64,000 nt of DNA from Candidatus Thiodiazotropha endoloripes (GTDB lineage Bacteria; Pseudomonadota; Gammaproteobacteria; Chromatiales; Chromatiaceae), in contig LVKA01000019.1 in the NCBI GenBank assembly GCA_001709035.1, positions 248,001 through 312,000 on the forward strand. Direction: 5' to 3'. Position numbers and translations under genes: made by a program. Of the stretch, positions 23,050 through 28,685 are shown in pieces. Under the pieces are notes generated by a model. That model saw nothing but the letters and a program-made list of their open reading frames with translations, did no database searches and was not told the DNA's origin. Numbering within the stretch: position 1 is the stretch's first letter; each line of letters opens with the position of its first letter.

Positions 23050-24302
<1,253 letters not shown>

Positions 24303-24443
24303 GCCGGTTTCCCGGTACCCCTATACGAGCCTATCCAGCAAGGAGGGAGGAGTATAAGGGGTCTGGAATATAAGGTCAAAGGATAGATGCATAAATTTTT
24401 TAATAGACAATATCTATAAATGGCTATTTTTTTGCTTTTGAAC

Positions 24444-24469
24444 GCTGCTTTTTGGTTTAAAACAGCAGC
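24444..24469 (-). terminator. Hairpin upstream of the atp operon, downstream of bufD
   Basis: GCTGCT and AGCAGC (24444-24449 and 24464-24469) can pair around a 14-nt T/A-rich loop; downstream on the minus strand is an A-rich rather than T-rich stretch. A second dyad (24487-24500 with 24520-24532, core ACCACCTCG / CGAGGTGGT) lies closer to the bufD stop. Together they probably separate bufD from the atp operon; the atp promoter should lie between 24303 and 24443. Confidence 0.45.
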
Positions 24470-24552
24470 TTAGGGTTATTGCAAACGATCAACCACCTCG
24501 CGAGCGGGGTGAGCGTCTCCGAGGTGGTGATCGATTATCAGTCAGACAATTC

Positions 24553-24993
24553 CTAGCGGCGCAAGAATAACTGGTCGAGTGACGCCTGGCCAGCACCGTG
24601 ACGGATCAGATAGAGCAGAGCGATAGCCCACCACATATGCACATTCCAGGCATCCGGATAGACAAACAGTTGAATCACTACTGTCATGCCCAGCAGGGAG
24701 AGGGCGGCGAAGCGGGTGAACAGACCGAATACCAACAGGATGGGAAACAGATGCTCCGCATAGGTTGCCAGGTGGGCGGCCAGCTCATGGGGGATCAGCG
24801 GCACCTTGTACTCATGCTCAAACAGGAAGTAGGTTGATTGGGAGATATCGAGAAATCCCGACACCTTGGTGCGGCCAGAGCTCCAGAACGTATAGGCGAC
24901 AGCTCCCCGGGCAAGCAGGGCGATCAGCCAGTCAGGAACCAGCTTTGCAATGAAGTCGAAAAGAGAGATCAGGCCGTTAACTATTGTATTCAT
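24553..24993 (-). CDS. bufD: DoxX-family membrane protein of the bufferin locus (BufD-like)
   Basis: The 146-residue protein has four hydrophobic segments. GLISLFDFIAKLVPDWLIALLARGAVAYTFWSSGRTKV, the HLATYAEHLFPILLVFGL segment and VHMWWAIALLYLIRHGAG with a basic pair are DoxX-like. DoxX-type proteins accompany many bufferin operons, where they are proposed to act in the membrane, perhaps with quinol oxidation. It follows bufC by 141 nt and may have its own promoter. The function is inferred from context. Confidence 0.78.
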   Translation of the reverse strand: MNTIVNGLISLFDFIAKLVPDWLIALLARGAVAYTFWSSGRTKVSGFLDISQSTYFLFEHEYKVPLIPHELAAHLATYAEHLFPILLVFGLFTRFAALSLLGMTVVIQLFVYPDAWNVHMWWAIALLYLIRHGAGQASLDQLFLRR

Positions 24994-25134
24994 GATGTCA
25001 CTACTTAGTATCGTTATTGGTTAGGGAACCTCTGAAAAAACCACCAGGTGCAGAAGGCGGTCGTCCATCGGTTCTACACACCCGTCATCGCGGGATGGTG
25101 ATCGTCGAATCGATCTGAGCTTGCTGAGTTGTGC

Positions 25135-25899
25135 TCACATGGCACAAAACGTCCCATCAAACAGATGACGGGAGAAAAATTGCCCCAAATCGAATTGCGG
25201 ATCCGTTTGATTCGTTGCTTCGAAGGCCTCACCGATGGTCGCCGAGGCCATGAGCTGTCTGACAAACTCGAACTCACCCTCCGAGACAACCCTGACCTGG
25301 ACCTCATTGTCCGGTCTTACGACAATCAACCGGCAGGCTCCCTCATCCAGCGAGATCAGCTCATCCTGATCGTCGGACTGGTTGACTGACCAGATCCGAT
25401 GGATGGGAAAATCGGAGGCCAGAAGCTGCAATGAAGGGTGGACACGAAGCTGAAGTTTGGCGAAGGCCTCTTCAGACAGATTCTGTAGTTGATCCGGCTG
25501 CAGAGGGAACGCATCCGCCGCGTGATAGGCCGCTGTCCAGGTAAACTCCAGACGGGCCACATCAGTCAGGTAGGGCAATCCCGACAGCTCGGGTATCGTC
25601 TGCAGAAAGTCGGCAAACAGGTCGCCATATAACAACAGCGTTCGATCCCTGGGGGGATGTTGTCGTACATAGGCGGTGGCCAGCATACGAAAAGCCTCAT
25701 CTCCCACCAGGCGCTTCACCACCGGGAACATATCCGCCAATGCATCACCATTGAGGACAATGAAGTTATTACGGTAGACCTGGAATCTCTGCCGTGCCAA
25801 ATCGTCGTCCTGCAACATTTCCAACAGGGCACCGTCCGGCGCATCGGCGGTTCTCAGTCCATCACAAAAGCTTCTTTGCAGCTCAGCCAGTAACGACAT
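25135..25899 (-). CDS. bufC: DUF2063 family partner of an MNIO enzyme (BufC/HvfC-like)
   Basis: The 254-residue protein starts MSLLAELQRSFCDGL at 25899, where GGAGG lies 6 nt upstream; a longer in-frame start is rejected. Residues about 5-95 match the DUF2063 domain (QRFQVYRNNFIVLNGDALADMFPVVKRLVGDEAFRMLATAYVRQHPP). The rest is a second, less conserved domain. In characterised MNIO systems such proteins bring the precursor peptide to the enzyme. It overlaps bufB by 17 nt, so the two are probably made in equal amounts. A DNA-binding label sometimes given to this family is not supported by the context. Confidence 0.85.
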   Translation of the reverse strand: MSLLAELQRSFCDGLRTADAPDGALLEMLQDDDLARQRFQVYRNNFIVLNGDALADMFPVVKRLVGDEAFRMLATAYVRQHPPRDRTLLLYGDLFADFLQTIPELSGLPYLTDVARLEFTWTAAYHAADAFPLQPDQLQNLSEEAFAKLQLRVHPSLQLLASDFPIHRIWSVNQSDDQDELISLDEGACRLIVVRPDNEVQVRVVSEGEFEFVRQLMASATIGEAFEATNQTDPQFDLGQFFSRHLFDGTFCAM

Positions 25900-26773
25900 T
25901 TCGGACCTCCGTTTCAGCAACAGCATCGATCAGACTCTGCGCGGAAGAGACCTCCTCCAGCAGCTGAGGAAACTCGGGAATGTTGCTGTCCCACTCGATC
26001 AGGGTTGGCGCCAAACCGAACTGGGATATGAACGCCTGATAGAGACTCCATACCTCGGAACAGACCGGTGATCCGTGATCGTCGATTCTCAAGGTGCGGC
26101 CCTCGACCTGTTGTACCGAATGTCCTGAGAGGTGGATCTCCCCGATCAGCTCGATCGGTATCTCTGATAAATAGTCATCGATGTTCCAGCCATGATTCGT
26201 GCAGGAAACAAAAACATTGTTTACATCTACCAGCAGACCGGCGCCGCTACGTTTTGCAGCTTCCACATAGAATACCTGCTCTGGCATTTCACTGGCCTTG
26301 AACTGCAAATAGCTGGAGGGATTCTCGATCAGTATCTGCCTCTGCAGATACTCCTGAACCTGCTCGATGTGTTCAACCATGACCTGCAGACTCTCTTCCG
26401 TATAGACCAGAGGCATCAGATCGTGGGTATACCATTCGTAGCCATGGCTCCAGGAGAGATGCTCTGAAACCAAGCCGGGTTCGAACCTGTCCACCAGACT
26501 CTTCAACTGCTGCAGATGCTCCCTATCCAATGGCAGATGACTGCCAAGGGAGGTACCGACACTGTGCAGCGAGATGGGATAGTCCTGGCGAATCTTTTCA
26601 AGGTAGCGCAAGGGTGGTCCACCCTTACCCATATAATTTTCGGGATGGATCTCAAACCAGCCGATGTCTGGCTGATCCTCGATCACGGATTGATAGTGTT
26701 GCGGCTTCAAACCCGCCCCGGCCCTTATCGGTACCGGCGCGGGTGCTCTGCCAGACGCTTGCATTGTTTCCAT
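25883..26773 (-). CDS. bufB: DUF692 multinuclear non-haem iron oxidative enzyme (BufB-like)
   Basis: The 296-residue protein is a TIM-barrel DUF692/MNIO enzyme. Candidate metal ligands are visible in conserved phrases: FEIHPENYMG, SLHSVGTSLGS, VSEHLSWS, LIENPSSYL, LVDVNNVFVSCTNHG, GEIHLSGH and DDHGSPV. MNIO enzymes oxidise cysteines of small precursor peptides; in bufferins the product is reported to be thiooxazole rings. The neighbouring gene encodes a secreted peptide with four Cys, the expected substrate. It follows bufA1 by 20 nt. Confidence 0.92.
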   Translation of the reverse strand: METMQASGRAPAPVPIRAGAGLKPQHYQSVIEDQPDIGWFEIHPENYMGKGGPPLRYLEKIRQDYPISLHSVGTSLGSHLPLDREHLQQLKSLVDRFEPGLVSEHLSWSHGYEWYTHDLMPLVYTEESLQVMVEHIEQVQEYLQRQILIENPSSYLQFKASEMPEQVFYVEAAKRSGAGLLVDVNNVFVSCTNHGWNIDDYLSEIPIELIGEIHLSGHSVQQVEGRTLRIDDHGSPVCSEVWSLYQAFISQFGLAPTLIEWDSNIPEFPQLLEEVSSAQSLIDAVAETEVRNVVTG

Positions 26774-26793
26774 GTCAGGTCCAGCAGATCAGC

Positions 26794-27051
26794 TTATTTT
26801 TCAGCCAGGCTGCCACCGACGATCTTTTCGCAGGTACCTTTGAGTACCAGCATCCAGGCATTGCCCTGTGCGTCAGTGGTAGAGGTGCCGGCACAGCTGG
26901 TGCCCGGACCAGCGGCGCAATCGTTCTTACCGGCTTTGGCTACGCCGAAACACTTTTCAGTATCAGCTGCGTTAGCCACACCAACAGGAGAGAGCGCCAA
27001 AGCAGTGGTAATTGCGCCGGCGACGAGTGCAGAAGTGGACGTTTTTTTCAT
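26794..27051 (-). CDS. bufA1: Bufferin-type RiPP precursor (DUF2282, BufA1-like)
   Basis: The 85-residue precursor has a clear Sec signal (residues 1-28, cleavage after VANA) and a mature part of about 57 residues with four Cys: 34, 45, 53 and 74. The spacing ([22 protein letters not shown]) is that of DUF2282/BufA1 proteins, whose signal sequence also serves as RiPP leader. Modified bufferins bind copper in the periplasm. The strong ribosome site GGAGGAG lies 6 nt upstream of the ATG. It is the first gene of the bufA1-bufB-bufC(-bufD) cluster. Confidence 0.92.
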
Positions 27052-27788
27052 GATTAACTCCTCCGAGAGAGTGTTGTTTTAAAGAATCGATAGTGATGCG
27101 ATTACCGCATTTCGTTCATTCGAGCATGGAGAAAGAACCCCTTGTGTGTGTAATTACGTCTTCAACACTTTTTCGGATTCACTTTTCCATCTCTTTTTTA
27201 CAAATCCCTTCGTTTAATTCATCAGTGAAATTGTGGTTAAACATGAAACCTCAATCCGACCTTTCAAATAAACGGCGGTAACACAACAGAGATCAGATAT
27301 CTGCTTGTGTTGTTTACAACATAGCATCTGTCGCTGGGATAGATATTAACGAAAGTATCACAGTGTATAGGGGCTTTATGTGGCGTAATCCCTTTCAATC
27401 AGACAACTCAATGACCGGTTTCGGAGATCAGAGAATGGACTAACACATTGATAAAATGACAACTCATCCACAAGCTGCTGTTAAGACCAACAACCCATGG
27501 TGTGTCAATTCATGTGATTTGCAATTCGCCGTTTCCTAACTTTTCTATCACACGACAGATGAAACGGCAGCTATTCCACTCTTAAGTACAAAGAAGATGA
27601 TGAATATGGCTGAGCGCCATGGGTGTTTTGACATCCAGTAGGTCGGTTCAATCGGCCGACAAATTAGCTGGGTAAGCTTATCATCCACAATAGTGAAGCC
27701 CGGCCAGCAGGAGCTGCTGACGTAATGGTTAAGTGCCGAAGATTGGTTTTGGTTTAAGGCCTGCTAACAGGCCCTAGGCATTCGACCA
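27052..27788. other. 737-bp non-coding region between bufA1 and parB
   Basis: No convincing gene is seen on either strand; short frames here lack ribosome sites and family resemblance. The part next to 27051 must hold the buf promoter. A stem-loop (AACACAA 27280-27286 with TTGTGTT 27305-27311, plus inner CAGA/TCTG pairing) lies in the middle. The parB-proximal end carries a hairpin copy of the dispersed repeat (27756-27778). A small RNA or leader is possible but unproven. Confidence 0.5.
27756..27778 (-). repeat. Dispersed repeat with hairpin, after parB
   Basis: On the minus strand it reads CCTAGGGCCTGTTAGCAGGCC, containing a 6-bp stem GGCCTG / CAGGCC with a 4-nt loop. It begins 10 nt beyond the parB stop. 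It shares the core TAGGGCCTGTTA with copies near 13387, 32485 and 38273. It could act as a weak terminator, though no T-run follows. Confidence 0.6.
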
Positions 27789-28685
27789 CTATTTTATATG
27801 GTCCAGGATTCCTTCCAACTCATCCAGACTGTTGTAACCGATCACCAGTTTGCCTTTACCCTTGGAACCCTGTTGCAGATCCACGTTGGCACCCAGCTTT
27901 TCCGACAGATCGGTGACCAGGCGTTTGATGTCCGGATCGACCTGCTGGGCGGCACGTTTGGGTTTCGGGTTTTCAGACTCATTCTGCATCCGTCGCACCA
28001 GGCGTTCGGTCTCCCGCACCGACAACCCTTGGCTCACCACCAGATTGGCCGCTCTGGTCTGATCTTCACCCTTCAATCCGAGCAGGGTGCGGGCATGGCC
28101 CATTTCGATTCGGCCCGATTCGACCAGCCCTTTGACCTCTTCATTGAGCTCCAGCAGACGCAGAAGGTTGGTCACCGTGGTACGCGATTTACCCACCGCT
28201 TTGGCCACTTCCTGATGGGTCAGTCCGAACTCATGCAGCAGTCGGCTCAGGGCATTCGCCTCTTCCAATGGATTGAGATCCTCCCGCTGGATATTCTCAA
28301 TCAGCCCCATCGCCATGGCGGCCTCTTCGGTGACCTCTTTGATCACCACGGGGATCTCATCCAATCCCGCCTGCTGGGCGGCCCGCCAGCGTCGTTCACC
28401 GGCAATCAGTTCGTAGCGATCATTCTCCACGGCACGAACGACCACCGGCTGAATCACCCCTTGAGCGGCAATCGAGTCGGCCAGCTCGCGCAGACTGTCC
28501 GGATCGAACTCACGCCGCGGTTGATAACGACCACGTTGAATCAGATCCACAGGCAGCCGAGACAGGTTGTCCCGCTTGCTCTCTTTACCGCTCTCGGTTG
28601 TTGCAACTTCCTCTTCCTTGTCAGCCTGCATGCCACCTAACAGGGCATCCAGTCCACGTCCTAATCCTCTTTTCTTTGCCGCCAT
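27789..28685 (-). CDS. parB: Chromosome partitioning protein ParB (CTPase clamp)
   Basis: The 298-residue protein has a basic N-terminus for ParA stimulation (AKKRGLGRGLDALLG), the CTP-binding domain with boxes I-III (QPVVVR, GERRWRAAQ, ENIQREDLNPLEEA), a helix-turn-helix (THQEVAKAVGKSRTTVTNLLRL) and a C-terminal dimerisation domain. ParB loads at parS and spreads. Two consensus parS sites are found about 16 kb away inside recF. The ATG is preceded by AAAAGAGAC. Confidence 0.97.
   Translation of the reverse strand: MAAKKRGLGRGLDALLGGMQADKEEEVATTESGKESKRDNLSRLPVDLIQRGRYQPRREFDPDSLRELADSIAAQGVIQPVVVRAVENDRYELIAGERRWRAAQQAGLDEIPVVIKEVTEEAAMAMGLIENIQREDLNPLEEANALSRLLHEFGLTHQEVAKAVGKSRTTVTNLLRLLELNEEVKGLVESGRIEMGHARTLLGLKGEDQTRAANLVVSQGLSVRETERLVRRMQNESENPKPKRAAQQVDPDIKRLVTDLSEKLGANVDLQQGSKGKGKLVIGYNSLDELEGILDHIK

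Follow-up and report, generated by a model that had tools for sequence, protein, structure and literature searches.

Sequence comparison points to a standard Buf1-type bufferin operon beside the ATP synthase genes of a Candidatus Thiodiazotropha-like symbiont

Bufferins of the Buf1 type are described as DUF2282 peptides with a Sec signal and four Cys, encoded together with an MNIO enzyme, a DUF2063 partner protein and DoxX in the core of the cluster (PMC12452194). According to the same source, the modification falls on the two central Cys, the outer two are joined in a disulphide, and the thiooxazole-containing product has periplasmic copper sequestration as its role. DoxX is frequent in Buf1 clusters, not obligatory, and some clusters carry a gene for a sigma factor or for NrsF (PMC12452194). 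The formation of 5-thiooxazoles was assigned to the BufB enzyme group, whose characterised products generally bind copper (PMC13097082). The GIG operon consists of the same families (DUF2282, DUF692, DUF2063, and DoxX); both copper and gold induce its promoter at 37 °C, and the copper response was decreased at 26 °C in the Legionella study (PMC5413113).

Here, we analysed a 64,000-nucleotide stretch of DNA, referred to as the window. The ORF list contains four co-directional frames on the minus strand, bufA, bufB, bufC, and doxX (Table 1). Their coordinates, strand and lengths match those of the first-pass annotation, and the position beside the ATP synthase operon given there was confirmed by Pfam, which placed atpI directly downstream of the buf genes and parB upstream. 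The remainder of the ATP synthase operon appears past atpI, as judged by eye. The genes had also been described as partly overlapping. This is true only of bufB and bufC, which share 44 bases, because bufA and bufB are 20 bases apart and bufC and doxX are separated by 141 bases.

Table 1. Coordinates of the buf genes and associated features in the window.
Feature	Position	Strand	Basis
bufA1 precursor, 85 aa	26794..27051	-	DUF2282 89.6 bits, cut-off 22.4
bufB1, MNIO (DUF692) enzyme, 296 aa	25883..26773	-	NF050167, PF05114
bufC1, DUF2063 partner protein, 263 aa	25135..25926	-	PF09836 81.5 bits
doxX (bufD), membrane protein, 146 aa	24553..24993	-	PF07681 DoxX 66.8 bits
bufC-doxX gap, 141 bases	24994..25134	-	
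Terminator-like hairpin within the final bufC codons, 8 pairs, 4 G-C	25152..25173	-	
Imperfect inverted repeat past doxX, possible end-of-operon hairpin	24486..24533	unassigned	fold + alignment
bufA-parB intergenic region, 737 bases	27052..27788	-	ggaggag ahead of bufA ATG

The closest match among the described systems is Buf1 (bufferin 1 of Caulobacter vibrioides), where these four families occur in this order as well and the precursor has four Cys and an apparent signal peptide; the window operon differs in the lack of an adjacent sigma-factor or NrsF gene and in the gap before doxX. The GIG operon, described in Cupriavidus metallidurans and Legionella pneumophila, is likewise collinear with the window operon. 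It belongs to other hosts, in which the promoter response to copper and gold was measured. An MNIO enzyme with a DUF2063 partner also makes the 5-thiooxazoles of oxazolin/fontiphorin (the captophorin EGKCG group), but the EGKCG repeats of the oxazolin/HvfA-type precursor are absent from BufA. In the case of Buf2, the MNIO enzyme, the DUF2063 partner and, apparently, the signal peptide are shared with the window set; its precursor has six Cys and is not a DUF2282 protein, whereas the window BufA has four Cys and gives no match to the BufA2 model.

The BufA precursor combines the DUF2282 (PF10048) feature of Buf1 with four conserved Cys at positions 34, 45, 53, and 74, and this numbering agrees with the earlier description of an 85-residue peptide. 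Residues 1-28 (KK, a hydrophobic run, and ANA before ADTEK) have the look of a Sec-type signal, as judged by eye. BufA gave no match to NCBIfam at E 0.001, and the search of solved structures found none for it. The pattern C-x10-C-x6-8-C-x20-21-C fits 116 of 120 BufA-like frames, a set that includes window copies and duplicate loci. The four misses were L019 (Tyr at the first Cys), L046 (Gly at the first Cys), L073 (internal repeat), and L010 (truncated remnant). For the 84 same-strand BufA frames in the best 80 of 100 related loci, spacing was recorded as the last three gaps between Cys. The commonest value was 10/7/20 (53 frames), which is that of the window BufA, followed by 10/6/20 in 20 frames and 10/8/20 in 5; the remaining 6 were different. 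The Cys pattern, proposed earlier as a sign of a variant, is therefore the usual one. The four Cys and N43 were invariant in an alignment of 54 rows (53 of 88 references and the window sequence), the rows having been chosen for carrying the Cys pattern.

The first-pass annotation proposed that the peptide is modified at its Cys. Since the reported Buf1 targets are the two central Cys and the outer two form the disulphide (PMC12452194), we narrow this proposal from all four to Cys45 and Cys53 as the expected targets. Loss of the Cys in close relatives had been named as an argument against modification. The four-Cys spacing is largely retained in the frames compared, but the genus-group locus L019 has lost the first outer Cys and kept the central two. 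The DUF2282 precursors without this Cys (L019, 4687-4950; L046, 4533-4892) belong to clusters that also contain B, C, and DoxX; its absence would prevent the reported disulphide, and a sequencing error is possible in both. On an uncultured Vibrio contig, four tandem bufA-like precursors precede a single bufB (L056, 3442-4938).

The BufB protein scored 373.7 bits against the NF050167 MNIO_BufB equivalog model (cut-off 310) and 339.4 bits against the Pfam family MbnB_TglH_ChrH (PF05114), also above the cut-off. The HvfB, ApyH, ChrH, and MbnB models scored it under their cut-offs, with 219 bits against 360 for HvfB. In MbnB, iron is bound by eight residues: His, His, Glu, Asp, Asn, His, Asp, and Glu (PMC8888699). 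The residues H70, H105, E150, D183, N186, H214, D231, E260, and D262 of BufB were each found in 79 of 79 rows of a set limited to frames with matches over 230 residues. All eight positions from H70 to E260 face the same residue type in the alignment with 8hci, and so do seven of the eight in the alignment with MbnB (7tcr), where the printed stretch stops before the eighth. From these alignments we infer that BufB would hold iron through the same ligands as MbnB. Asp249 of FonB was named as the base (PMC13097082), and D262 is its likely counterpart in BufB; this residue faces the Asp of an 'ERDF' stretch in 3bww, but Gln in 8hci. With BufB as query, 100 relatives were obtained from named genomes, and the analysis kept the best 80. 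The closest four, 94-95% identical, are Candidatus Thiodiazotropha taylori, Thiodiazotropha sp., a Stewartia floridana symbiont, and a 'Chromatiales bacterium'. This similarity suggests that the host belongs to Candidatus Thiodiazotropha or lies very close to it.

The other two proteins exceeded the Pfam cut-offs for DUF2063 and DoxX, but stayed below those of the oxazolin-system (Hvf) models: BufC reached 49 bits with HvfC (cut-off 142) and DoxX 58.3 bits with HvfX (cut-off 80). A phmmer search of solved structures with BufC gave no credible match. Profiles of A, B, C, and DoxX were then built from the window proteins and run on the best 80 of the 100 related loci. Same-strand A, B, and C were found in 79 of the 80. 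A BufC-like match was present in every locus, with BufC and BufB in one frame in L076, and a DoxX-like match was present in 66. All four occurred together in 65 loci; because the DoxX-like match of L062 lies upstream, the window order A-B-C-doxX holds in 64/80. Among the loci without DoxX, several are cyanobacterial, and two (L042 and L044) end shortly past bufC. The recurrence of A, B, and C and of the full order indicates that the association of the four genes is not due to chance.

Based on these results, we conclude that the locus is very probably a bufferin operon of the standard Buf1 type, carried by a Candidatus Thiodiazotropha-like symbiont. The Pfam families, NF050167, gene order, and Cys conservation agree with the bufA1-bufB-bufC plus DoxX locus proposed in the first-pass annotation, and on sequence grounds the Buf1 identity is well supported. 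Copper and thiooxazoles enter the reading by analogy with relatives (PMC12452194, PMC13097082), and induction of the operon by copper would be expected on the same basis. Several points weigh against the standard reading: no regulator gene and no recognised operator adjoins the operon, L019 and L046 lack the first Cys, and some genus genomes lack BufB. The induction of GIG by gold and the weaker copper response of the Legionella GIG operon at 26 °C (PMC5413113) were also weighed on this side.

In the proposed working of the system, BufC would present the precursor in the cytoplasm, and BufB, with iron and O2, would convert Cys45 and Cys53 into 5-thiooxazoles. Each thiooxazole corresponds to a mass loss of about 4 Da. 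For comparison, a loss of ~30 Da was described for seven thiooxazoles (PMC13097082). The product would then be exported by Sec with removal of the signal, the Cys34-Cys74 disulphide would form, and the mature peptide would bind surplus copper in the periplasm. DoxX probably serves as an accessory protein in the membrane, although its role is uncertain. The operon is an ordinary, complete Buf1 set, and there is nothing really new in its mechanism.

The region 24300-27800 was scanned for regulatory signals. It gave two promoter-like sites against a shuffle mean of 3.4, and neither of them was on the bufA strand in the bufA-parB intergenic region. No recognised operator was found upstream of bufA, and no regulator gene was found among the ORFs beside this copy of the operon. 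A conserved operator was rejected after alignment of 17 upstream regions (15 from the genus group and two from Sedimenticola), because only the ribosome-binding site is shared throughout; relatives with the parB site have more upstream sequence in common, as expected of close kin. Upstream of atpI, the segment 24303-24470 hardly differs between the window and four near relatives. The scan placed its best promoter-like match here (TTGACC-17-TATACT, 10 of 12), probably the ATP synthase promoter.

The first-pass annotation also took the 'late, separate bufD' as the mark of a variant. DoxX is last in the usual gene order, and the gap before it proved to be a trait of the genus group. In the 13 Thiodiazotropha-like loci (L011-L022 and L035, grouped by titles and BufB identity of at least 72%), the gap was 44-143 bases in every case with the longest-frame start. 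Among 52 loci outside this group, a gap of at least 40 bases was found only in L045 (135 bases), or in five loci when the nearest-Met start was used. This rarity, together with the terminator-like hairpin in the final bufC codons, is what could be said for a variant bufferin, in which odd Cys spacing or separately controlled doxX leads to a different product or control. The chance of this is very slim. The Cys spacing is the commonest one, the gap varies in size within the group, and its sequence aligns among the nearest relatives and poorly beyond. The scan revealed no promoter-like site in the gap, on which ground a separate doxX promoter was rejected, and terminator-like sites occur in the region at the chance rate (three found, 3.0 expected). 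The inverted repeat past doxX is absent from the results of both the terminator scan and the repeat scan. It is also very unlikely that the gap uncouples doxX from bufABC in Candidatus Thiodiazotropha with the help of the bufC-end hairpin, with DoxX being produced in response to something else, such as sulphur or oxidative stress in the clam, and the bufferin answering to copper. We read the gap as lineage spacing.

The host of the operon is probably a sulphur-oxidising clam symbiont, and the main target of the bufferin could be gold, mercury, sulphur or oxidative stress rather than copper. Gold induces the GIG operons as well (PMC5413113), MerC-bufferin fusions occur, and a DoxX homologue elsewhere counters oxidative or sulphur stress (PMC12452194). 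We nevertheless consider such a target unlikely, given the copper binding that is general for products of the BufB enzyme group (PMC13097082) and the copper role described for bufferins (PMC12452194); moreover, no pointer to another metal was seen in the window locus. A decaying or silent operon could be suspected from genome G012, where bufB is broken by stops and atpI adjoins, and from a truncated bufA remnant elsewhere in the own genome. All four window genes are open, and five near relatives have a BufB with 93-95% identity to that of the window, which makes decay extremely unlikely.

The distribution of the set was examined in 22 genomes of the genus. A BufB match with an identity of 72% or more along most of the protein was found in 16, the own genome included, any MNIO match in 18, only a distant one in G007, and a DUF2282 match in 17. 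Four genomes without a BufB match and the one with the broken bufB indicate that the set is dispensable in the genus. The flanks also vary. L011, L012, and L013 each carry parB, the buf genes, and atpI on a single stretch; the distance from parB to bufA is ~3.1 kb in L014 and ~1.4 kb in L022; in L015, atpI is downstream and the contig starts just ahead of bufA; L109 (genome G012) holds bufA, bufB pieces, and atpI. In the available flanks of seven genus-group loci (L016-L021 and L035, the flank of L018 being short), par and atp genes were not found. The position beside the ATP synthase genes is therefore common to part of the genus, and no sign of a functional link between the two operons was seen. 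The viral-contig scan found no relative, the 351 matches in plasmid records were all less than 60% identical, and the repeat scan of the locus gave only short two-copy pairs. No paper naming the genus was among the matches listed in a literature search for Thiodiazotropha bufferins or copper resistance. The present data document bufferins in this genus of lucinid-clam symbionts.

The window operon is accompanied elsewhere in the genome by another Buf1 set, a Buf2 set, and the bufA remnant. The second Buf1 set (L006, contig C7, 6362-9337) consists of a DUF2282 precursor, BufB (320.7 bits, cut-off 310), and bufC; after these come genes for an ECF-type sigma factor and for a 194-aa protein that matches no Pfam family and may be the anti-sigma factor. 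In the Buf2 set (L005, contig C14, 7240-9143), a BufA2 precursor (NF050166, 98.2 bits, cut-off 60) is accompanied by BufB and a DUF2063 partner. No DoxX match was found in the 16 kb of sequence covered for either set. The remnant (L010/L120, contig C10:1121443-1121550) is a 38-residue end piece that matches the window BufA at 30 of 38 positions and lacks the signal peptide and the first two Cys. Three bufferin sets in one genome are of possible note for metal handling in chemosynthetic symbionts.

A divergent MNIO-like protein of ~490 aa with a C-terminal extension is encoded on contig C10 (L007, 7224-8684). No BufC-like match was found in the 15 kb covered, and its neighbours are genes that we take to be lexA, imuA, imuB, and dnaE2. 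Homologues were compared in five genus genomes, chosen for a prior MNIO match. In three of them, lexA/imuA/imuB-like genes were not found in the 8-9 kb covered, and in the other two (L121 and L124) they adjoin the homologue. An MNIO protein in a possible SOS neighbourhood may merit separate study.
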